From Natrarchaeobius halalkaliphilus (GTDB lineage: Archaea > Halobacteriota > Halobacteria > Halobacteriales > Natrialbaceae): a stretch of DNA of 64,000 nt. Under the pieces are notes generated by a model that ran no database searches, was not told the origin of the DNA, and saw nothing but the letters and a program-made list of their open reading frames with translations. Location of the stretch: the NCBI RefSeq assembly GCF_003841485.1, contig NZ_REFY01000004.1:434001-498000 (forward strand), in the 5' to 3' direction. Position numbers and translations under genes: made by a program. Below are positions 677 through 56,080 of the stretch, piece after piece (the first letter of the stretch is position 1; each line of letters starts with the position of its first letter).

Positions 677-2683
677 TCACTCGCTCTCGAGGGAGGTCCC
701 GACCGAGTCGATCGTGATGACGCGGTCGAACAGCGGCTTGAGCGTGTTGATCTCGTGTGGATCGCCGGCGGAGGGATCGACGTGGAAGTGTGAGACCGCG
801 TCGACGGTCTGGAGCTTGCTGAGAAAGAGGTGCAAAAATCGGAACGTTCCCTGGACGCTTTTGTACTGCAACAAGACGTCGAGCGGATCGTAACAGACGA
901 CGATGTCAGCCACGCCGGAAGTAGCCCACTCGTCGACCGTCCCCGTAACGACGATCCCCAGCCGGGTGACGTCGTTTGGATTGTTGATCCTGACGTTTTC
1001 GACGGTCCCCTGAATCGGGTCGGGGATCGGCTGACTGTAGCCGATCGAGATGATCTTGACGCGAGCTGCGTCCGAGGCGATCCGCTCGAGTCGTTTCCCG
1101 TCTATCTGGGTGTATCTGATGAGCAAGACGTGGCTGTCCGTCACGTCGTCCAGTCCGAGGAGGTCCGTACAACAGGCGGTCTTGCGGTCGTCGTGAGAGC
1201 CACACTGGACCAGGACGCTCGTCCCGTGCTCGAGATCGAGGCTATCGGGTCTGTGGTATGCATCCGGAGTGCCGAACAGCGCGTCCGCAGAGTCAGCGTT
1301 CGGCTCGTCCGGCGATGTCGCAGGGTCGGACGAGTCGGCCGACTGTCCGACAGCGTCAGCCGAATCCGCGGCATCCGGATCCGGATCCGGTTCCCTCGAA
1401 GCTGTCTCGTCCGCAGTCACATCCTCGAAACCACCGATATCGTCGCGAAGATCGTCGATATCGCTCTCGAGTTCGTCGGTATCGCTCTCGGGATCGTCCG
1501 TGGCTTGGTCTTCGGACTCGTCGGCGGCATCCTCCTCGAGATGATCTCTGAGCAGGACGAGTAACTCGTCCTTCGACAGCTGTTCCAGACGGTCCGGGTC
1601 GTCGTTATCTCGATCCGTCTCGTCGCGTTCGTGAGCGAGTAGCTGTTCGATTTCGCCGCGGTCCGCACTCGAGAGCGCAACGGTAGAACCGATCGAGTCC
1701 GCGGCTGTCCGGGTAGAGTCAGCCGTGTCCCCTTCTGTCGACTCGGTGTGGGTGGGGACGGCGGAGGAAAGCGGCAGAGAGTCGTCGGGACGACCCTCGA
1801 GTTCGCCGCCGGACTCCGTGTCCGCAGTCGATCCGGTCCCCTCGGACTCGATCGGTTCGGGTTCGCCAGCGTCGGTCGGCGCTGATTTCTCGACGTCGAT
1901 TTCCCCGGACTCTGCGGCTTCGATCGCAGACCGTGCGAGCTGGAACGCCGCGTCCGATTCAGCGGTATCGTCGTCCGACGTCGGGGGGCCATCGTTCGTC
2001 TCCGTGGACCCTCCGGACCGTTCGTCGCTGGGTTCCGAGGGGGTGGACGATCCGTCGGCGGACGACGACCCCGTTCGGAGCCGACTGTGATAGACTGGGC
2101 CGAGGATCCGATCGAGCAGCCGAGTTAGCCGTCCGGAAACGGTCGGGGACAGCTTCGTCGCGACCGAACGAAGTATCCCGTTCGTCTCGGCTCGATCCCG
2201 GACCACGAGTTCGTTCGTTCCTCGAGACGACGCGTCACTCCCGATCGGTTCGATTACGATGCCTTCGTCTGGATCGGTGATGTCCTCGGTCCGGGACTGG
2301 GAGACGAGCTGCTCGACGTGGCGAGCCAGCGGCCAGTAGGCGTTTTCGAACGCGGCAGTGGTCACGCATCGAGTTACGCCGGCTTCGACGGCCGCGTCGA
2401 CGGGTGGGTCGGAATCGGGGTTCGCGAAAAGAACGACCGGGAGCTCGGGCTGCTCCTCGCGAATCCAGCGGACGAGTTCGAAGTCGCGCCGTGCGAGCAG
2501 CGTGCACTCGCCCAGAACACAGTCGATCCGAGAGGTCTCTATCAGTTCCTTTCCGGTCTCGAGATCGCTCGCCGTAAGAACGTCAAACCCGTGAACGGTC
2601 TCGAGGACGTACGCGTGACGGTCGAGGGAAGCAGCGTCGTCGAGAGAGAGTATCGTCAGGTCGATATTTTCGTAGTCTGCCAT
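677..2683 (-). CDS. Receiver-like plus DUF7504-type regulator protein
   Basis: Haloarchaeal regulator-like protein of 668 residues. The N-terminal 130 residues have a response-regulator fold pattern (LTILSLDD..., VLETVHGFDVLTASD, ELPVVLFAN), but the usual phospho-acceptor Asp position reads VLGECTLL, so phosphorylation is doubtful. A long acidic, low-complexity linker of about 300 residues follows. The last 180 residues (from GTSVLVQCGSHDD) match my memory of the haloarchaeal DUF7504 family, a RecA/KaiC-like fold, here without a Walker A lysine. The ATG at 2683 is preferred over one 45 nt upstream because the homologous region starts at MADYENIDL. The family name is recalled, not searched; function unknown, probably signal integration. 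Confidence 0.75.
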   Translation of the reverse strand: MADYENIDLTILSLDDAASLDRHAYVLETVHGFDVLTASDLETGKELIETSRIDCVLGECTLLARRDFELVRWIREEQPELPVVLFANPDSDPPVDAAVEAGVTRCVTTAAFENAYWPLARHVEQLVSQSRTEDITDPDEGIVIEPIGSDASSRGTNELVVRDRAETNGILRSVATKLSPTVSGRLTRLLDRILGPVYHSRLRTGSSSADGSSTPSEPSDERSGGSTETNDGPPTSDDDTAESDAAFQLARSAIEAAESGEIDVEKSAPTDAGEPEPIESEGTGSTADTESGGELEGRPDDSLPLSSAVPTHTESTEGDTADSTRTAADSIGSTVALSSADRGEIEQLLAHERDETDRDNDDPDRLEQLSKDELLVLLRDHLEEDAADESEDQATDDPESDTDELESDIDDLRDDIGGFEDVTADETASREPDPDPDAADSADAVGQSADSSDPATSPDEPNADSADALFGTPDAYHRPDSLDLEHGTSVLVQCGSHDDRKTACCTDLLGLDDVTDSHVLLIRYTQIDGKRLERIASDAARVKIISIGYSQPIPDPIQGTVENVRINNPNDVTRLGIVVTGTVDEWATSGVADIVVCYDPLDVLLQYKSVQGTFRFLHLFLSKLQTVDAVSHFHVDPSAGDPHEINTLKPLFDRVITIDSVGTSLESE

Positions 2684-3019
2684 GTTCCCCCAGTCACTGT
2701 TCGAACGTCGCGGACCTGTATCGATCAACTCGAGCGGTGCTCTCCCGTTCCCCGCTCACGAATTCAATCAATGAGTTGTATAGGTTTCTAGCAGTTATTA
2801 AGTCTTTTCGCTCAGAGTTAAGGTTCCCGCGTCACTGCATTCTCCTAATGAGCGAGTTGGGGAACTGTATCGATACTCGACCGGTGATCGGATCCGTCGA
2901 CGGCCCGACGGTCGGCTCGGAGAGTCCGATTCCGACGAGTCGAGGGGGAACGGAAAAGGGGGAACGAACCCGTCGTGGTCGGCACACGTGAGTCGGTCAC
3001 TCCGGGAGCCGAGTGACTG

Positions 3020-47487: not shown

Positions 47488-47837
47488 GTGAGATCGTTCG
47501 GTGAAACCGACCGCGTCGTCGATTTCGAAGGCCAGTCTCAGCTAGTGAGTCGGGGCTGATAACGGCTTCCGATCGTTCCCGGGCGGTGAGAACGGTTTTT
47601 CGATCCACCCGCTCACCAGTCAACGCCACGCGCGGGCTTCGCCCCGAACTTCTCGTAATTCCAAACGAGTAGCAATAGTAGTTATATATCCGACATTTTG
47701 CGTGCTATCGTACCCCAGTGTGAGTATTTTCTTAGATTCGGGCTATATCTGTTCAATTACATCCCTATCTTTTAATAAAAATACCTATGTAAATATAAGA
47801 TAATTATATTACTAATGGGTACATCCATTGGATTGTG
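47488..47837 (+). promoter_or_regulatory. Intergenic region before the small membrane peptide gene
   Basis: A 350-nt region without a convincing gene. The part from about 47640 to 47825 is strongly AT-rich (runs such as tttaataaaaat and aattatatta), unlike the surroundings. TATA-like words near 47795-47812 could drive the peptide gene at 47838. The compositional break could mark a recombination edge of the CHAT locus. Confidence 0.45.
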
Positions 47838-47972
47838 ATGTCCGACAAAGACAGCATGAAAGATTACCTCGCAAAGCACCCACGAATGATCGGCGTCCTG
47901 TTCACCATGTTCGTCCTGCTCAGTCAGGCGGGCACGGCGGCGGCAGGAATCAACAGTCAGATGGGACCGTGA
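47838..47972 (+). CDS. 44-residue membrane peptide (DUF7503-type)
   Basis: A tiny gene for a 44-residue peptide. It has a charged N terminus (SDKDSMKDYLAKHPRM), one hydrophobic helix (IGVLFTMFVLLSQAGTAAAG) and a short tail ending QMGP. It closely fits a haloarchaeal small-protein family that I recall as DUF7503, with the pattern YL-x-x-HPRM-x-GVLFT-x-LLLSQAG-x-x-AAG and a final GP; the number is from memory. It is either a single-span membrane peptide or a processed secreted peptide cut after AAG. It faces the CHAT protease gene convergently, 88 nt away, so the protease could act on it; that is inference. Confidence 0.8.
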   Translation: MSDKDSMKDYLAKHPRMIGVLFTMFVLLSQAGTAAAGINSQMGP

Positions 47973-48060
47973 ACGACGCGGCAGAATCCACGCGATAGTT
48001 CGACGCGAAAATTCGACGCGAAACAACACTGTTCTTCTCGCTGGCGTATCCGAACTCCGA

Positions 48061-50136
48061 CTACTCGAGGATAGCGGGGCCGATGCCGTCGTTCCAGTGA
48101 AGGCCGTCGTCGATCAGTATCGGAAGCTCCGTCCACGTCAAGTACTCCTGAATCGACTCCCCGTCGACGAACGAGGACGGGGTGACTCCCGGTGAGAGAT
48201 GGCGGTCCGCAACACATTCGAGGTTCGACGCGCTTGCTGTTCCGAGTTTGTACTCCTTGGTGGAATATGTTCGAACGGAGAACCCGTACTCACCGTCCGG
48301 GCACGGATCGAGTTCGACGACGCCGGGTGCGCCGCCGTCCGACTGGGCGATATCCGCGGATCCGTCACCGACGATGAGGTACTGGTCACCGAGTGCGGTG
48401 TTCTCCTGGGCGATCTCGAGCGCTCCCCGGAGCGGGAAGCCGCGGTTGAGTAACCTGGCGATCGTCTCACCGGCTTCGACGGCGTCCTCGTTGACGACGT
48501 CGCTGTACGTGCCGACGCCGCCGAACGCTCCGAGACGAGTAAGCGCGAGACCTTGCTCGTAGGACCGACAGGCGTTCAGGAAGAAGACGCCAAGGTCGAC
48601 CGACTCGAGCGTGCGGACGTCGAGATCGCCGTCGGGACAGCGGATGCCGTCTTCGGTCGCGTGGCCGATGTAATGGAGGAAGTCGTAGCCGCCGTCGGTG
48701 AGCAACGAGGCGAACTGATCCGTCTCGACGCCGAACTCGGAGTGGATCTCGAAGGGGAGTTGGTCGCGATTCCCGTACGTCTCGTCGAGCAGGTCGTGTT
48801 CGTCGATCATCCGGACGTCGTTACAGACGAGCAGGATCTCGATCGATTCGTTCCGGGCGTCGCGGTCGAGTTGGCTCCGGTAGGCCTCGATCGTCGCCTT
48901 GGACGCCTTCTGTGGAACGGAGTCTCCGAACCAGGCGTGTTCGACCGACTCGTCGGTGACGTCGGGGACGACGAACGCCGACTCGCTCCGGATCGACGAC
49001 GACGAACGGTACTCCGTTGCCGATCGAACGAGTTGTGCGCCGCCAGTGTTCGGTTGCGGAACCGACGTCGGGGACCGTCCGCGTGACTCGCGAACGATAC
49101 CGAGTTCGTTGACGACGAACGGGACCACCTCGATTCCCTCCGATTCGTCGGGAACGTGTGCGGTCAACGGCCACCGCGGAACGTGGGGTTCCAGGCGCTC
49201 GTACGGGACGGAGAGATACTGTTCCAGTCGGGCGGAGAGCGGCTCGTCGTAGATCGTTTCGAGATCGAACGGGAGCGTCCGCTCCAGTACCGAACGCTCG
49301 AGCAAGTCGTACTGAAAGATGCCCTCCGTTCGGGCCAGACAATCGAGCAAGAAAAATCGCTTCAACAGGCTGGCGACCTCGTTGCTGAACCCGCCGCGAT
49401 CCGTCAACGATCGTTCGAATCGCGGCGTCTCGAGCGTCGGTTCCCGGCCGAGACGGATCGTCCCTCCGAGGAAGAACGCGAGCGGCGCAGCCTGATAGAG
49501 AGAGCGGTACGTCGGCGGGACGGTGAGCGTGACGTCGCTGTCCGGCGGATCGATCTCCGAGGGAACGTCGAAGCTGTCACCCAGTTCGATCAGGGGCGGG
49601 TGTCCCCGTAGCGTCGGCCACGTTCGTTCCGGAGAGGTCGTCTTCAGCGCCGACGGAAGCATCGAGACGGCCTCGGCCATCGATTCGATGTCTGGCGGCG
49701 TCGTGATCGTTCCGACCGGTCGGTCGTGCGGGGATCGAGCGCCGAGCTGGACCGTCGTCTCCTCCTCGAGCGAGATCCGGACGGAGGTGAGCCCGATGTC
49801 GATCGTTCCCGCCGAGTCGATTCGAAAGTAGAGTTTGATCGGGGCGCTCAGTCCGACGAACTGGGTTCCGTCCTCGAGCGTCGCCGTCTCGCCCACGTCG
49901 AAGTTGGCGGCCGCCTGTCCCGTGCTGTCGTGGAGGGTCACGGCGTAGTGCTGATCGAAGCGCAGTTCGGCCGTTTCGATCGGAGACGACGTGTCGACCG
50001 GGAACGGGAACTCGTCAGTGTCGGTCGGATCGAGCGAGACCGGTCCCGACGTGCCGACGTGGAGGTGTCGTTGCTCGATCGAGTCGTGAACCTCGAATCC
50101 GGTGGGGGTGGTCGTTGCTTGGAGTTCGATCGTCAT
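48061..50136 (-). CDS. CHAT-domain caspase-like protease
   Basis: A 691-residue protein whose C-terminal 260 residues form a CHAT (caspase-HetF) peptidase domain. The catalytic dyad is visible: His492 in FLHYIGHATEDG and Cys523 in VFFLNACRSYEQG. The first 430 residues are a beta-rich region unique to this protein type (for example LYFRIDSAGTIDIGLTSVRISL, and GIEVVPFVVNELGIVRE) and may sense a signal or bind a partner. There is no signal peptide. CHAT proteases act in programmed cell death and antiphage defence in bacteria. The start at 50136 (MTIELQATTTP) is chosen over an Arg-rich extension. Neighbours are an Orc1/Cdc6-like ATPase upstream and a membrane peptide gene downstream. Confidence 0.88.
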   Translation of the reverse strand: MTIELQATTTPTGFEVHDSIEQRHLHVGTSGPVSLDPTDTDEFPFPVDTSSPIETAELRFDQHYAVTLHDSTGQAAANFDVGETATLEDGTQFVGLSAPIKLYFRIDSAGTIDIGLTSVRISLEEETTVQLGARSPHDRPVGTITTPPDIESMAEAVSMLPSALKTTSPERTWPTLRGHPPLIELGDSFDVPSEIDPPDSDVTLTVPPTYRSLYQAAPLAFFLGGTIRLGREPTLETPRFERSLTDRGGFSNEVASLLKRFFLLDCLARTEGIFQYDLLERSVLERTLPFDLETIYDEPLSARLEQYLSVPYERLEPHVPRWPLTAHVPDESEGIEVVPFVVNELGIVRESRGRSPTSVPQPNTGGAQLVRSATEYRSSSSIRSESAFVVPDVTDESVEHAWFGDSVPQKASKATIEAYRSQLDRDARNESIEILLVCNDVRMIDEHDLLDETYGNRDQLPFEIHSEFGVETDQFASLLTDGGYDFLHYIGHATEDGIRCPDGDLDVRTLESVDLGVFFLNACRSYEQGLALTRLGAFGGVGTYSDVVNEDAVEAGETIARLLNRGFPLRGALEIAQENTALGDQYLIVGDGSADIAQSDGGAPGVVELDPCPDGEYGFSVRTYSTKEYKLGTASASNLECVADRHLSPGVTPSSFVDGESIQEYLTWTELPILIDDGLHWNDGIGPAILE

Positions 50137-50297
50137 GTCTCCTCGCGTCGCTGACTGTCCAATACGGTTCCATTGACTAAAAGGATCGCATCGAATCGTC
50201 CGCCGATGCGGGTCGTTGCCGGTTAGTTCGGTACACCAGCGACTGCCCGGCGGTTGTGCCGCTACAGTGGTACGACACATCGTACGAAGCGAGAGTT

Positions 50298-51461
50298 TCA
50301 GGAGAGGTCCACATCGGTCGTCGAGGAGAGCGACTGGAACGTGATCGGCGGGAACCGGGCTTCGATCGCACTGGGCCGACGGCCGGTTCCGTTCGCGGGT
50401 AACGGAACCCGCTCGATCACGCCCCTGTCAGCGAGTTCGTAGAGGAACCGCTTGACCGTTCCCGCCGTCAGCGACGAATGAGTCGCGATCTCTTCGGCGA
50501 CGTCGCGAATCGGCTGTCCGTCCGACTCGAGAGAGACGAGGTGCGAGAGGACTTGCTGGCGCGTCTCCGAGAGGGCGAGAGCTCGGTCGACGTGAACCCC
50601 GTCTTCGGGAACGTCCGCTTTGGCGCGCTCTAGGTGCTGGTGGTCGATCCGGTCGCTTTCGTCCTGACGGGCGTAGGCCGCCGCCTCGAACAGCGCCGCG
50701 AGCGCGTCGTGTGCGTTTCCGTCGGCCCACATCGCCAGATCTCTCAGGGACTCGTGATCGATGACGCCCGGCGCGAGAGCGGTCGACGTTCGGTCCGTAA
50801 TGACGTCGACGAGTTCGTGATGTCGATAGGGCGGGACGGAAACCGTCGTGCCGGCCCAGTCAGTCGGCGCAGCGCTTCCAACGGCCACGGTGGAGACGCT
50901 CGAGTCGACGGGTTCGAGCAACTCGCAGACTCGCTCGTACTCGAGCGTCTCCGGCTCGTGGTGGTGGTCGATCGCGACGACAGCCTGGCGATCGTGACGA
51001 GCGAGACGGTCTCGAAGCCGATCGTGAAGCGCTCCGGTTCCGATACCGCTCTCGGGAACGGATTCCGATGAGAGTACCGAGAGCACGGCCCGGTAGAACG
51101 CGAACTCGCTCTGGACGCGGCGAGCATCGACGTAGACGAACCACGTCGTCGGTTCGGTACTGCCCGCTCGCGTCGTCGTCCGGATCGACTGACTCGATTC
51201 ACCGAGGCGGTCGTTCATCGCATCGAAGAGGGCGACGACGATAGCCGACGTGCCCGAACCGGGGGGACCGACCACCGCGACGGGCGAGGGCAGGTCACCG
51301 TCGAACACCGGTTCGAGGGCATCGAGCAACTGCTCGAGAACGGGGCCGCGGCCAACCGGTTCCGGCCGGTGGACGACGGGGCTGAGGTGATCGTGGTCGA
51401 CGACGATTCCCTGTCCCTTGTGGGCGGACCGCCGTCGAGCGATTCGTTCGTGTAAGTTCAT
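50298..51461 (-). CDS. Orc1/Cdc6-like AAA protein with degenerate Walker motifs and winged helix
   Basis: A 387-residue protein laid out like archaeal Orc1/Cdc6: an N-terminal strap (LSPVVHRPEPVGRGPVLEQLLDAL), an AAA core, and a C-terminal winged helix (about 296-375, TRQQVLSHLVSLESDGQPIRDVAEEIA). Walker A reads GPPGSGTS, with Thr71 where Lys is required, and Walker B reads AVVAIDHH, with His166 in place of Glu. It therefore probably neither binds nor hydrolyses ATP normally, and a replication initiator role is unlikely; a DNA-binding regulator or signal partner for the CHAT protease is more plausible. It starts 28 nt after the glpC stop and could be read through from the glp operon. Confidence 0.82.
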   Translation of the reverse strand: MNLHERIARRRSAHKGQGIVVDHDHLSPVVHRPEPVGRGPVLEQLLDALEPVFDGDLPSPVAVVGPPGSGTSAIVVALFDAMNDRLGESSQSIRTTTRAGSTEPTTWFVYVDARRVQSEFAFYRAVLSVLSSESVPESGIGTGALHDRLRDRLARHDRQAVVAIDHHHEPETLEYERVCELLEPVDSSVSTVAVGSAAPTDWAGTTVSVPPYRHHELVDVITDRTSTALAPGVIDHESLRDLAMWADGNAHDALAALFEAAAYARQDESDRIDHQHLERAKADVPEDGVHVDRALALSETRQQVLSHLVSLESDGQPIRDVAEEIATHSSLTAGTVKRFLYELADRGVIERVPLPANGTGRRPSAIEARFPPITFQSLSSTTDVDLS

Positions 51462-51489: not shown

Positions 51490-52956
51490 TCATCCGTCCG
51501 TTTCCGAGGAGTCCCCGACGAGTGCCGCCTCGAGGACCTCGAGAGTGTGTGTGATCTCGTATCCCGTCCCGTGTTCCATCTGCATGGAACAGGTCGGACA
51601 CTCGGTGAGACCGGTTCGAGCGTCGGCGTCGGCCATGTGTTCGAACATCTCCTCGCCGATCTTCATGGACGTTTCGTAGTTCTCCGCCTTCCAGCCGTAG
51701 GTCCCCGAAATGCCGGAACAGGAGTCCCCCACGTCGTGTACGTCGATCCCGTCGATTGCGTCCATCACTTCGATCGTCTGTCCATTGAGACCCTGATTAC
51801 GTGAATGACACGGTGCGTGATAGACGAAGTCGTCGAACTCCGCTCCGACGGACGTTCCCTCGAGTTCGGCCTCGAGATCCTCGTGAACGCGGAGGTACTC
51901 GACTGCGTCCCAGGTGTTCGCGGAGACGTCCTCGGTTCCCTCGAAGTCGAACAGTTCGGGATACTCCTGGCGAATCGACATCGAACAGGAGCTACAGGAG
52001 GCGATGATATCTGCGCCGTTCTCGATCGCGTCCGCGAGTTCCGCGACGTTGGTCTCTGCGGCCCGTCGAGCGTCCTCCAGCATGCCGTTTGCGAACATCG
52101 GCGTGCCCGAACAGTGCTGGTCCGGGACCAACACCTCGTAGCCGAAGCGTTCGTAGACGCGCACGAGCGCTTTTCCGACCTCGGGCGTGTTGTAGTTCGA
52201 GTAACAGCCGTGGAAGTACGCGATTCGTTTGTCTTCGCTCGGTTGGTTCGACTCGCCTCGCCGTTTCGAGGCCGCGTTGTCGCCTCGCTTTTCTCGCGCA
52301 TCCTGCGCTCTCCGTTTCGAGGCCGCGTTGCCGCCTCGCTTTTCCCGCGCATCCTGCGCTCTCCGTTTCGAGGCCGCGTTGCCGCCTCGCTTTTCCCACC
52401 ACTCACGGAACGTTTCCGTCGCGAACGCGGGCAACTCGCGCTCGCTCGTGATCCCGAGGGTCTTCTCACCGAGCCACTTGGTTATCGACAGCCCCAGTAC
52501 GAAGTTCGCCGTTCGGGGGAACGTGGCACCGAGTGGAGCGAACCGCCGGTAGTTCGCCAGCATCCGATTTCGAAGGTACTCCCGGGAAAGTTTGCTCATG
52601 GTCTGCTCGACGTACTCGCCTCGAGCCGTGTTGTGCATCTGTGAAAGGGGCACGGAAGACGGGCAGGCGCTATCACAGCGCATACAGTTCGAACACTTCA
52701 TCACCGAGTCGTCGATGTCGTGGTCGTCCTGGCGCTTGAGCCGCCACTGTTCGGGTCCCTGGAACTTCGGTCCGGGAAACTCGTCGTCGACCGCGGCGAC
52801 CGGGCAGTTCGTATCGCACGTCGAACACTTGTAACAGTCGTCCGCACCCGGCCTGAGATCCATCTCCTCGGCTTCGGGGAAGACCTGGATCGGCTCGAAC
52901 TCGTCGTCTCCCTCGTCCGGTGCGCCGCCGTCGATCGGTTGCTCTGCGTCACTCAT
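51490..52956 (-). CDS. glpC: Anaerobic-type glycerol-3-phosphate dehydrogenase, subunit C
   Basis: Iron-sulfur, membrane-associated subunit that passes electrons from GlpAB to quinone. The 488-residue protein has two 4Fe-4S motifs (CYKCSTCDTNCP near residue 41, CSNCMRCDSACP near 88) and two CCG domains (YFHGCYSNYN, DQHCSGTPMF; YHAPCHSRNQG, DSCSGISGTYG). Between them lies an insertion of about 50 residues made of three EKRGGNAASKRRAQDAR-like units, absent from the usual family. The start at 52956 (MSDAEQPIDGG) is chosen; it overlaps the stop of a small ORF by ATGA. Haloarchaea use this GlpABC complex in aerobic glycerol use despite its bacterial name. Confidence 0.95.
   Translation of the reverse strand: MSDAEQPIDGGAPDEGDDEFEPIQVFPEAEEMDLRPGADDCYKCSTCDTNCPVAAVDDEFPGPKFQGPEQWRLKRQDDHDIDDSVMKCSNCMRCDSACPSSVPLSQMHNTARGEYVEQTMSKLSREYLRNRMLANYRRFAPLGATFPRTANFVLGLSITKWLGEKTLGITSERELPAFATETFREWWEKRGGNAASKRRAQDAREKRGGNAASKRRAQDAREKRGDNAASKRRGESNQPSEDKRIAYFHGCYSNYNTPEVGKALVRVYERFGYEVLVPDQHCSGTPMFANGMLEDARRAAETNVAELADAIENGADIIASCSSCSMSIRQEYPELFDFEGTEDVSANTWDAVEYLRVHEDLEAELEGTSVGAEFDDFVYHAPCHSRNQGLNGQTIEVMDAIDGIDVHDVGDSCSGISGTYGWKAENYETSMKIGEEMFEHMADADARTGLTECPTCSMQMEHGTGYEITHTLEVLEAALVGDSSETDG
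52261..52397 (-). repeat. 51-bp tandem minisatellite inside glpC (2.7 copies)
   Basis: Units at 52261-52311, 52312-52362 and a partial third to about 52397. Each full unit codes a 17-residue basic, hydrophilic EKRGGNAASKRRAQDAR-like segment, so copy number can change without frameshift. Units 2 and 3 are almost identical, which points to recent expansion. Confidence 0.9.
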
Positions 52957-53051
52957 GATATCACCCGTAACAGTCGCTTGCCCGCGAGTTCGTGCGTCGT
53001 CGAATCGACGCTCGCCGGCAGTTCGTCGCTCATCGGCGAGTCGTCGCTCAT
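52953..53051 (-). CDS. Hidden 32-codon ORF coupled between glpB and glpC
   Basis: A complete reading frame of 32 residues fills exactly the space between glpB and glpC. Its ATG (53051) overlaps the glpB stop as ATGA, and its TGA overlaps the glpC ATG as ATGA. It begins MSDDSPMSDELPAS and ends HELAGKRLLRVIS. The start contains an 18-bp tandem duplication (exact 15-bp core at 53023-53037 and 53041-53055) and resembles the start of glpC (MSDAEQP). It may be a translated microprotein, a coupling device that keeps ribosomes loaded between the two subunits, or a decayed duplicated gene start. No homology recognised. Confidence 0.5.
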   Translation of the reverse strand: MSDDSPMSDELPASVDSTTHELAGKRLLRVIS

Positions 53052-54358
53052 CGGCCACCCACCTCGGCCGCACGCGTTCCGGCGACGTAGCCGGTCGCAA
53101 GCGAGACGCCGGATCCCGACTTCTCGGCCGCGAAGTCGTAGCCACCGAGGACGGCACCGGCGGCGGACAGGTTCGAGAACTCCGGGACACCGTCCGCCGC
53201 GAGCGGACGAAGGTCACGGTCGACTTCCAGTCCGAACCGTGCGTAGGGCTGGTCACCGAAAACGTCGTCGACGAACCAGTCGTAGCGGTCCGCGGGATGT
53301 GAGACGTGACAGTCGAAGATCGGTTCGTAGACCCGCTCTCGATTCGAGTCGACACCCTTGCCGACCAGCCCGCCCGTCGCGAGGACGTACTGGTCCGCCC
53401 GATGAGGGACCTCGGCCCCGTTCCGATCGACGACGACGTGGTCGATCCGATCGGTCGTCCCGCCCGCCGTTTCGGCCGTCGTCTCGTAGTCGACCACCGG
53501 AACGCCAGACGTCAGCCGAACGCCGGCGTCCTCGAGTGCGTCGTACAGCAGCCCCTCGAGTCGCATTCCGGGGAGACTCGGCGGTCCCATCGGCACCTCG
53601 AAGACGTCGACGCCGAGCGCCTCCGCGAGTTCCTCACGGACCGTCTCGACGCGGTCGTCTCCCAGTATCGCGGGGAATCCGACCCGGGATTCGTCCTCGA
53701 GATGAGTATCGACGCTCGCGGCGAGCGCGTCGCGTGCGGACCGCTCTCCGGAATCCGCGTCGACGACCTCGTCTCGGTCGAGCAGGTGGGCGTACCGCGT
53801 GATCTTCGCATCGTCTCTGCGGATTCCGGGGAACGAGAGCGTCACGCCGCGAGCGTCGAAGGGGACGCCGGCTGCCTCGAGGTGACGCGCGGCGAGCGGT
53901 GCGTCGAAGTCGGGCAGCGTTTCGAAGCCGACCAACAGCGTCTCGCGGGTATCGCTCGCAAGTCCCGGTGCCGTCGAGGCGGGATATCTGGCCGTCGGTT
54001 TGACGGTCCCGCCGTAGGTCGGAACGAGCGCGTTGCGGTCGGTGTGGCCGCCCTCGTACGCCCCGTCGACGACGCGATCGAAAAACGCGAGCGCCTCGCG
54101 GACGGCGTCGGTGCCGACGCGCTCGTACGGATGACCCGTCGGGAGCGCCTCGAGCGCGTCGAACGGGTCTGCGAGCGGTCCCTCTCCCGCCGGCGTATAA
54201 CCGAGCACGTCGATCAACCCGCTCGCGTGACGGAGCGTGCTCTGTCTGTGCGTAACCAGTCGAACCCGCGCGTCGGGATCGGTCTCGAGGGCGGCGAGTG
54301 CAGCGGTCGCTCCCGCGATCCCGCCGCCGACGACGAGGACGTCGTCCTCGATTGCCAT
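53048..54358 (-). CDS. glpB: Anaerobic-type glycerol-3-phosphate dehydrogenase, subunit B
   Basis: Flavoprotein partner of GlpA that links the catalytic subunit to GlpC. The 436-residue protein starts with an FAD-binding motif (DDVLVVGGGIAGATAALAAL), has GLIDVLGYTPAG and VGFPAILGDDRVE typical of GlpB, and ends with FSNLSAAGAVLGGYDFAAEKSGSGVSLATGYVAG, the second part of the dinucleotide site. Its ATG directly follows the glpA stop (no spacer), and its stop overlaps the small ORF before glpC, so the operon is glpA-glpB-small ORF-glpC. Confidence 0.95.
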   Translation of the reverse strand: MAIEDDVLVVGGGIAGATAALAALETDPDARVRLVTHRQSTLRHASGLIDVLGYTPAGEGPLADPFDALEALPTGHPYERVGTDAVREALAFFDRVVDGAYEGGHTDRNALVPTYGGTVKPTARYPASTAPGLASDTRETLLVGFETLPDFDAPLAARHLEAAGVPFDARGVTLSFPGIRRDDAKITRYAHLLDRDEVVDADSGERSARDALAASVDTHLEDESRVGFPAILGDDRVETVREELAEALGVDVFEVPMGPPSLPGMRLEGLLYDALEDAGVRLTSGVPVVDYETTAETAGGTTDRIDHVVVDRNGAEVPHRADQYVLATGGLVGKGVDSNRERVYEPIFDCHVSHPADRYDWFVDDVFGDQPYARFGLEVDRDLRPLAADGVPEFSNLSAAGAVLGGYDFAAEKSGSGVSLATGYVAGTRAAEVGGR

Positions 54359-56080
54359 CTATCGATCCCCCTGGTCGAATGCGTCGTACTCGAGGTCGGC
54401 TGCGGTCGATCCCGACCCGATCGCTCCGGGACGGACGTCCCGATCGGCTTCCGACCTCGCGGGATCGTAATCCCGGTTCATCGTCGTCGCGTGCAACGCG
54501 TAGTTGAGCATCGCTTGCGAGAGTTGCTCCCCCCAGAGGGCGTGTCGTTGCCCCTTCCAGCGCTCCTGAAACAGTTCGTCGAGCGCCGCTCGAGCCGTCG
54601 CTTCGTCGTGGTCGGGGTGGAGTTCGTTCGCCATCCCGACGCAACAAAAGCCGCCCTGGCAGTTGCCCATCGACGCGCGCGTTCGGATTCGGACCGCGTT
54701 CAGGTCCGAGCCGGACTGCGAGACGGCGTCGCGAACCTCCGCGCGGGTGACCCCTTCACACGCACAGATAACGGGATTCGGATCGTCGGTCTCGAGGACC
54801 TCTCGAGAGCGACTCCCCAGTCGCTTCGTGCTGCGACGGGCGACCGGGGAGCGAAGACCGAACCGGTCCATTCCCTCCTCGAGCGCGGCGATGTTCTCGC
54901 TCCCCGGCAGCGGTCGATCGGCGGTCGAACAGTGAGCGGTCACACCGAGTTTCTCACAGACGTGATCCGAAATCTCCTCGGCCATCGCGCGATACGTGGT
55001 GAACTTGCCGCCGACGATACTGCTCACGCCGGTGACGCCGTCGCGGTCTTCGTGATCGATCAAGAAGAAATCCCGCGTGATGTCCGTCGGATCCCGAGTG
55101 CCCGTTTCGGGGGGTTCATACAGCGGCCTGACGCCCCAGAACGACCGAATCGTGCGTGCGTCCTCGAGAATCGGAACGAGATCGGAGAGGGTATCGATCA
55201 TCATATCGACCTCCCACTCGGCTTCCGGGTAGTCGTCCGGGTCGGTGACCTCCTCGTCGGTGGTACCGAGGATCGCCGTCGTTTCGTGCGGGACGATGAT
55301 GTCGGCGTCGCCCTTCGGCCGACAGCGATTGATGACGGTGTCGACCTGCCGGACGTTCATGATCGTCATAACTCCCTTCGACGGGCGAACTGCGACGTCG
55401 AGGTCGGCCATCGCTCCGATCTGGCCGGCCCAGGCCCCCGTCGCGTTGACGACGTACTCGGCGGTGATCGCTTCGGTACTGCCGGGCGATTGATGGACGC
55501 GTTTTCCGGGCCCGGAGTCGTGTCGAACCCGGACACCGTAGACGTCCTCGCCCTCGCGCAACAGGTCGATCACCTCGGCGTGCGTCTCGATTCGTGCGCC
55601 GTGGTTCTCGGCGTCGATCGCGTTCGCGACGCAGAGTCGGAACGGATCGACAGCGCCGTCGGGAACGGAGATTGCGCGCTCGATGTCGCTGGCGAGATAC
55701 GGCTCGCGTTCCCGCGCCTCCCGTCCGGAGAGAACGCGAGCCGGGATGTCACACGCGCGACACCCCTCGAGTTTCTCCCGGAAGTACTCGTCGCTGTCCT
55801 CGGGTCGCTGGACGAACAGCCCCCCGGTCATCTCGACGCAGTGACCGGCGATCTCCCGGAGGATCTCGTTCTCCTCGATACACTCGGTTGCACTCGCCCG
55901 ATCGGATACCGCATATCGTCCCCCGCTGTGCAAGAGGCCGTGCATTCGGCCAGTAGTTCCATCAGTTAGATTGCCCCGCTCGACGAGGGTTACCTCGAGG
56001 CCGCGCATCGCCAGATCACGGGCGATACCGCAGCCGGTGGAGCCGCCGCCGAGGACGAGGACGTCCGTGTCGGTTGCCAT
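54359..56080 (-). CDS. glpA: Anaerobic-type glycerol-3-phosphate dehydrogenase, subunit A
   Basis: Catalytic subunit oxidising sn-glycerol-3-phosphate to dihydroxyacetone phosphate. The 573-residue protein has the FAD motif [22 protein letters not shown], then [25 protein letters not shown] typical of GlpA/GlpD, and a C-terminal BFD-like [2Fe-2S] domain ([13 protein letters not shown] ... [10 protein letters not shown]). First gene of the glp operon. On the minus strand an ataaaataaa TATA-like box (56110-56119) lies about 35 nt upstream. It is divergent from glpK, the kinase that supplies its substrate. Confidence 0.96.

Follow-up and report, generated by a model that had tools for sequence, protein, structure and literature searches.

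In bacteria, the substrates of CHAT proteases are commonly encoded near the protease, as is the case for Craspase, whose substrate is encoded next door (PMC9729208). Such pairs of protease and neighbouring substrate are already known, as are DUF7503 (PF24335) and DUF7504 (PF24336), which exist as consecutive Pfam families of unknown function; the Pfam output gives neither a function nor a link to CHAT. In archaea, extracts of Haloferax volcanii show strong caspase-type activity with Asp preferred at P1, and archaeal genomes have been reported to lack clear caspase homologues (PMC3615174). Here we describe a locus in a 64,000-nucleotide stretch of the genome of Natrarchaeobius halalkaliphilus (contig NZ_REFY01000004.1, positions 434,001 to 498,000; hereafter the window), in which a gene for a CHAT-type caspase-fold protease faces a gene for a 44-residue membrane peptide of family DUF7503. 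That the two are partners, and very old ones, is well supported, and we take the best explanation, to which we give an even chance, to be that CHAT acts on this dedicated peptide, the two genes forming a module that is part of the haloarchaeal core. The literature searched, with subscription papers outside its scope, contained no account of the pairing, no paper mentioning DUF7503 and none joining the CHAT domain with haloarchaea.

The closest described proteins are SAVED-CHAT, a type III CRISPR protease (structure 8tl0), and TPR-CHAT (Csx29 of Craspase), both of which have, like the window protein, a caspase-fold CHAT core with a His-Cys dyad. Unlike them, the window protein carries an N-terminal beta-sandwich and has no recognised SAVED or TPR part, and unlike SAVED-CHAT and Craspase it is encoded by a core gene of haloarchaea and has as its partner a convergently encoded membrane peptide of 44 residues. 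Separase and the gingipains (clan CD) share the two-domain pseudo-caspase/caspase core (VIA Z 13-20), and the gingipains have an acidic residue at the S1 position as CHAT apparently does with Asp440, but identity is only 10-18% and there is no common partner or known shared process. A bacterial CHAT-gasdermin system has its protease next to a membrane-acting substrate; the pair described here shows a conserved adjacency and a membrane helix, its peptide would be a candidate for such a substrate, and it is far too small for a gasdermin. The two genes of the pair are convergent, their 3' ends meeting, and the parts of the locus are as follows.

47838..47972, forward strand: DUF7503 (PF24335) membrane peptide gene, 44 amino acids, sequence MSDKDSMKDYLAKHPRMIGVLFTMFVLLSQAGTAAAGINSQMGP
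48061..50136, reverse strand: gene for the CHAT-type caspase-fold cysteine protease, 691 amino acids
48661..48663, reverse strand: codon of the predicted catalytic His492 (DFLHYIGH), from motif conservation
48568..48570, reverse strand: codon of the predicted catalytic Cys523 (FFLNAC), from motif conservation
48817..48819, reverse strand: Asp440 codon; the residue follows strand beta-1 in the caspase core and is assigned by motif and secondary structure

The ATG of the CHAT gene lies at 50136, and the same frame is open up to 50280. No Pfam or NCBIfam model named the 691-residue protein in profile searches, and the Pfam CHAT model (PF12770) gave no match to it and matched only 8 of 28 relatives, weakly (best E = 0.0066), so that the assignment rests on a structure model. 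The AlphaFold model, built from 71 haloarchaeal sequences, has a mean pLDDT of 85.5 and a pTM of 0.86, and Foldseek ranks the SAVED-CHAT filament 8tl0 first among its matches (2.1e-7), followed by separase (5e-7) and gingipain; a search of the CHAT profile against PDB sequences found nothing meaningful. In VIA-align, residues 321-598 were superposed on gingipain RgpB with Z 20.2 (241 residues, 2.8 A), on SAVED-CHAT with Z 18.6 (170 residues, 2.3 A) and on separase with Z 16.9. The model is divided into a beta-sandwich (1-138), an alpha/beta region (150-320), the pseudo-caspase and caspase core (321-598) and a C-terminal domain (600-691), and the core has a caspase-like fold with the His and the Cys at the ends of adjacent strands. 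The position of His492 is H in 142 of 147 CHAT sequences and that of Cys523 is C in 141 of 147; the exceptions belong mainly to a divergent third clade (loci L208-L211) whose His and Cys motifs are unrecognisable, and which probably consists of inactive protease homologues that have seemingly lost the dyad. Searched alone, the N-terminal domain gave no Foldseek match under 1e-3 (the best, at 1.0e-3, being a beta-sandwich of GH31 type), and its resemblance to the sandwich domains of carbohydrate enzymes and YidC stays at Z < 8 (best VIA Z 7.9), a level which can reflect merely a common arrangement, so no function is drawn from it. As modelled, then, the protein is a CHAT-type caspase-fold cysteine protease, with proteolysis as its predicted activity.

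The peptide belongs clearly to DUF7503 (E = 5.8e-22, 77.4 bits against a cut-off of 27). Residues 17-35 form its single hydrophobic stretch (Kyte-Doolittle mean 1.72), and its conserved positions are P15, R16 (R or K in relatives), G19 and a C-terminal Gly-Pro. Across the Halobacteria the family keeps one plan: a polar helix at the N-terminus, then a single hydrophobic helix with a nearly invariant Pro-Arg/Lys immediately ahead of it, and finally a tail that is short and variable. The tail ends in Gly-Pro in 92 of 113 distinct peptides (81%), as against 0.9% of open reading frames of similar length; every one of the four codons for Gly, and of the four for Pro, is used for it, which rules out an artefact at the DNA level. 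This codon usage and a pN/pS of 0.28 among relatives, indicating purifying selection, show that DUF7503 is a selected protein rather than a spurious reading frame. In one genome (locus L082, 2670-2979, reverse strand) two tandem DUF7503 copies lie opposite one CHAT gene. A preliminary description of this DNA, made from its letters alone, had proposed a caspase-like CHAT protease with His492 and Cys523, a 44-residue membrane peptide facing it and a third gene beside them: all three reading frames are present where it placed them, the fold model and the conserved dyad bear out the protease, and the PF24335 match and the hydrophobic stretch bear out the peptide.

The distribution of the two genes was surveyed in an even sample of 292 Halobacteria genomes and in 125 genomes of the family. 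CHAT is present in all 125 family genomes and DUF7503 in 121 of these, while in the class sample the figures are 271 (93%) and 250; DUF7503 occurs in 0 of the 20 CHAT-negative genomes listed, for which the probability by chance is 1e-19, uncorrected for relatedness. Among 126 DUF7503 genes, 118 converge on a CHAT gene no more than 500 nt away, at a median gap of 45 nt between reading frames, and the remainder are convergent but 0.7-4.5 kb off or, in one genome, 34 kb away. Seen from the protease, 108 of 126 distinct CHAT genes have a convergent DUF7503 within 400 nt, and five further ones face a small, unrelated-looking reading frame that in all five cases ends in Gly-Pro. Because part of the locus set was chosen by DUF7503, most weight belongs to the 80 loci chosen by CHAT alone, all but eight of which include the peptide gene. 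Duplicated CHAT genes mostly carry a peptide of their own, five such pairs being found in a single genome (G094). Distance trees of the two proteins correlate with r = 0.69, compared with at most 0.13 for permuted data, and loss of the Gly-Pro tail, when mapped on a tree of 107 CHATs, needs five changes compared with 18.5 for shuffled labels; linkage by itself accounts for part of this agreement. One CHAT copy (locus L143) sits on a plasmid. In six loci (L046, L062, L068, L073, L084 and L085) the genes stand in the tandem order CHAT-DUF7503-CHAT, and the second CHAT lacks a separate peptide gene within 400 nt.

Where DUF7503 is absent, a different small reading frame ending in Gly-Pro often stands in for it, tail to tail with CHAT and some ten nucleotides or less away. 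These substitutes differ from genus to genus: that of Halomarina has HPK and a helix, that of Halorubellus has a membrane helix and PQ instead of P[R/K], and those of Halococcus and Haloplanus have no membrane helix, the Haloplanus version doubling the unit ADGNGGAVSGP. A second CHAT paralogue, of a near-universal second clade, is present in the same genome as the window (G000:C3:600852-602885, locus L192), with a DUF7504 gene 8 kb from it at C3:610802. CHATs of this second clade face small reading frames ending in Gly-Pro in several genomes (L193-L197), but not in that of the window. As read from the sequences, the substitutes and the second-clade partners suggest that what CHAT partners have shared longest is their C-terminal Gly-Pro and their position, and not a membrane helix. 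Four genomes, all from one family that does not belong to the Halobacteria, have more distant CHAT relatives (E 1e-60 to 1e-70; L204-L207), some of them without the His or the Cys motif.

Upstream of the peptide gene the DNA is rich in A and T, and two elements can be distinguished.

47797..47809, forward strand: AT-rich promoter element AAGATAATTATAT, which recurs upstream of DUF7503 genes
47812..47831, forward strand: putative operator CTAATGGGTACATCCATTGG, consensus CCANTGG-N6-CCANTGG

The interval from -100 to 0 of DUF7503 genes has a median of 66% AT throughout the class, compared with 36% for the loci as a whole, and some 30 nt separate the promoter element from the ATG, a spacing that hints at a leaderless peptide transcript. 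In the Natrialbaceae the dyad lies at a fixed distance from the DUF7503 gene, 26 of 112 having it with at most two mismatches, a quality of match that never occurred in shuffled sequence; the site in the window is the only dyad in its genome with at most one mismatch and is conserved in Natrialbaceae orthologues. Since it falls between a TATA-like box and the start codon, the dyad is most likely a repressor site. The preliminary description had rightly noticed this AT-rich flank and had taken it for a hint of acquisition, but the flank is a conserved promoter of the peptide gene; its class-wide occurrence, together with the gene order around the locus, which a congeneric relative (L032) retains, leads us to reject a recent arrival.

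As for what lies upstream of the protease in function, DUF7504 is encoded directly upstream of 33 of the 126 CHAT genes, on the same strand and outside the glp-linked clade to which the window belongs. It also occurs fused to HalOD1 (L045) or to a response-regulator receiver, as in one gene of the window that does not adjoin CHAT.

680..2755, reverse strand: DUF7504 and response-regulator receiver fusion gene, not physically linked to CHAT in the window

HalX or receiver-PAS regulator genes are found near 26 loci of the neighbour survey, a proximity that is suggestive only, as related genomes have their gene order in common. The most economical reading of these associations would be that two-component signals feed the protease.

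On the explanation that we favour, a cytosolic CHAT-type caspase-fold protease and a small membrane peptide dedicated to it would constitute an ancestral haloarchaeal module. A repressible AT-rich promoter of its own would drive the peptide, which would insert with its N-terminal segment in the cytosol; some signal, arriving in many loci perhaps through two-component or DUF7504 proteins, would switch the protease on, and the activated CHAT would then act on the peptide as a substrate rather than as a ligand. The cut would most likely fall after the Arg or Lys of the HP[R/K] motif, at the inner face of the membrane, and would alter the membrane activity of the peptide or free its N-terminal part, with stress signalling or regulated death as the presumed cellular outcome. 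A preference of CHAT for a basic P1 residue is plausible because Asp440, whose position is D or E in 144 of 147 CHATs, appears to stand at the place of Asp163, the S1 residue of gingipain R that follows strand beta-1 (PMC4626109), and because the peptide has its Arg or Lys at the presumed cytosolic edge of the membrane.

Several observations weigh against this account. The equivalent of Asp2151, the S1 residue of separase, is apparently Asn549 in most CHATs; six members of tandem CHAT pairs, and a small number of further CHAT genes, lack a peptide of their own; and the Halorubellus partner with its PQ and the Halococcus and Haloplanus partners without a membrane helix occur with CHATs that keep Asp440, so that a cut at HP[R/K] could not be universal. 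The C-terminal Gly-Pro, moreover, is the most constant feature of the peptide and is left unexplained by such a cut. These partners and the unexplained tail make a serious rival of the idea that the peptide is a ligand of CHAT (a membrane tether, an inhibitor or an activator) recognised through its C-terminal Gly-Pro, an end that persists even in partners lacking the helix or P[R/K] and that is duplicated with its unit in Haloplanus. We nevertheless regard it as somewhat unlikely, in that the tail would be extracellular, away from a cytosolic protease, if the N-terminus is inside as the charges suggest, and in that some five changes on the CHAT tree took away the tail but not the pairing.

A peptide of 44 residues with a hydrophobic core, small residues (VAA or AAA) and then a variable hydrophilic tail with a fixed end may also be seen as the precursor of a secreted peptide signal, with CHAT taking part in its processing or in the response to it. 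On this view a Sec-like signal sequence, with AxA just ahead of the tail, would precede a variable mature part of 6-8 residues ending in Gly-Pro, and the HalX and receiver-PAS genes noted above would suit such signalling, subject to the same shared gene order. A long acidic N-terminal region and an invariant HP[R/K] are unusual in a signal sequence, however, partner versions without a membrane segment exist and CHAT has no obvious export signal, and we judge this origin improbable.

Bacterial CHAT proteases act in defence (PMC9729208), and by analogy CHAT might activate the peptide as a pore, a role that the preliminary description had allowed for it, in antiviral abortive infection. Anti-phage defence is expected to be patchy and mobile in its distribution, but CHAT, at 271 of 292 genomes of the class and 125 of 125 of the family, is neither, and in the clade of the window it is syntenic with the glp genes; PADLOC gave no match for CHAT or the peptide, and no CHAT relative was found on viral contigs. 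Near-universality, synteny and the lack of PADLOC or viral matches mark a core gene rather than a member of a defence island, and abortive infection is thus very improbable, a specialised or virus-defence role for the pair being disfavoured in general.

The third gene of the preliminary description lies directly upstream of CHAT and is itself preceded, on the same strand, by genes of glycerol metabolism.

50298..51461, reverse strand: degenerate Orc1/Cdc6-like AAA+ gene with C-terminal winged helix, 387 amino acids, a gene of the glp locus
51490..56080, reverse strand: glpC, glpB and glpA (anaerobic glycerol-3-phosphate dehydrogenase), the names glpA and glpB being assigned from order and sequence

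The Orc1/Cdc6-like protein matches AAA_16 (3e-13) and Cdc6_lid (2.7e-8) above cut-off, the winged-helix models weakly and below cut-off, and TIGR02928 with 1e-22 and 80.5 bits, under the NCBIfam cut-off of 181.3; an AAA+ core with a Cdc6 lid and a C-terminal winged helix gives it the architecture of Orc1/Cdc6. It lacks what an initiator needs for function, a lysine in Walker A and an acidic pair in Walker B: its Walker A reads GPPGSGTS, with K replaced by T in 42 of 45 aligned relatives, and its Walker B has DH. The preliminary description had called the ATPase dead, a judgement with which these motifs agree, and with the lysine gone in so many relatives the protein is, by its motifs, a conserved degenerate ATPase in the clade of the window. 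Distant Orc1/Cdc6-like proteins (L035, L041) keep the lysine that the Natrialbaceae clade has lost.

The same description had made this protein the sensor or regulator of CHAT, with all three genes as one system, and the gene does lie directly upstream of 35 of 126 CHAT genes, in loci that also carry glpABC. It is present, however, in 216 of 292 class genomes, several of them without CHAT; it lies directly behind glpC even where CHAT is elsewhere (L043, L047, L052, L055, L065, L069, L074), and, among 20 loci examined (L172-L191), nearly all of those long enough to tell have it behind glpC or with a glycerol kinase and a membrane protein gene a few kb from glpA, while most CHAT/DUF7503 pairs have no Orc gene. 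Because it tracks glpABC or glpK throughout the class, with or without CHAT, we reject a role as the sensor of CHAT, and a single three-gene system is scarcely credible. Of the co-occurrence of three families that the description had anticipated, that of CHAT and the peptide holds and that of the Orc-like gene does not. Orc1/Cdc6-like winged-helix proteins recur instead as conserved members of the glycerol loci (glpABC, glpK) of haloarchaea, and the protein looks like a regulator of such loci. Within glpC of the window, RGGNAASKRRAQDAREK is encoded by an in-frame 51-nt tandem repeat (52257-52397, reverse strand; 2.8 copies, 96% match). A few scattered relatives (L032, L097, L138, L065, L113, L111, L044, L075) have one related copy at the corresponding position and most others have none, so that the unit resembles a small in-frame insertion element.

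The Orc result clears a false lead and indicates a degenerate Orc-like protein as the likely regulator of a glycerol locus. For the protease, the caspase-like activity of Haloferax volcanii offers a point of contact, since it too is haloarchaeal caspase-type proteolysis and Haloferax species carry CHAT, but its preference for Asp at P1 differs from the basic P1 that, if any, is predicted here; CHAT is possibly behind that activity. A broader proposal, which we consider distinctly doubtful, is that an ancestral caspase-fold protease recognises small and otherwise dissimilar partners through a C-terminal Gly-Pro and underlies regulated death or stress signalling, possibly including the haloarchaeal caspase-like activity. 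The pairing with CHAT would explain DUF7503, a Pfam family of unknown function, and as a concrete gene pair that can be deleted in a tractable archaeon it would make regulated proteolysis or death in archaea testable.

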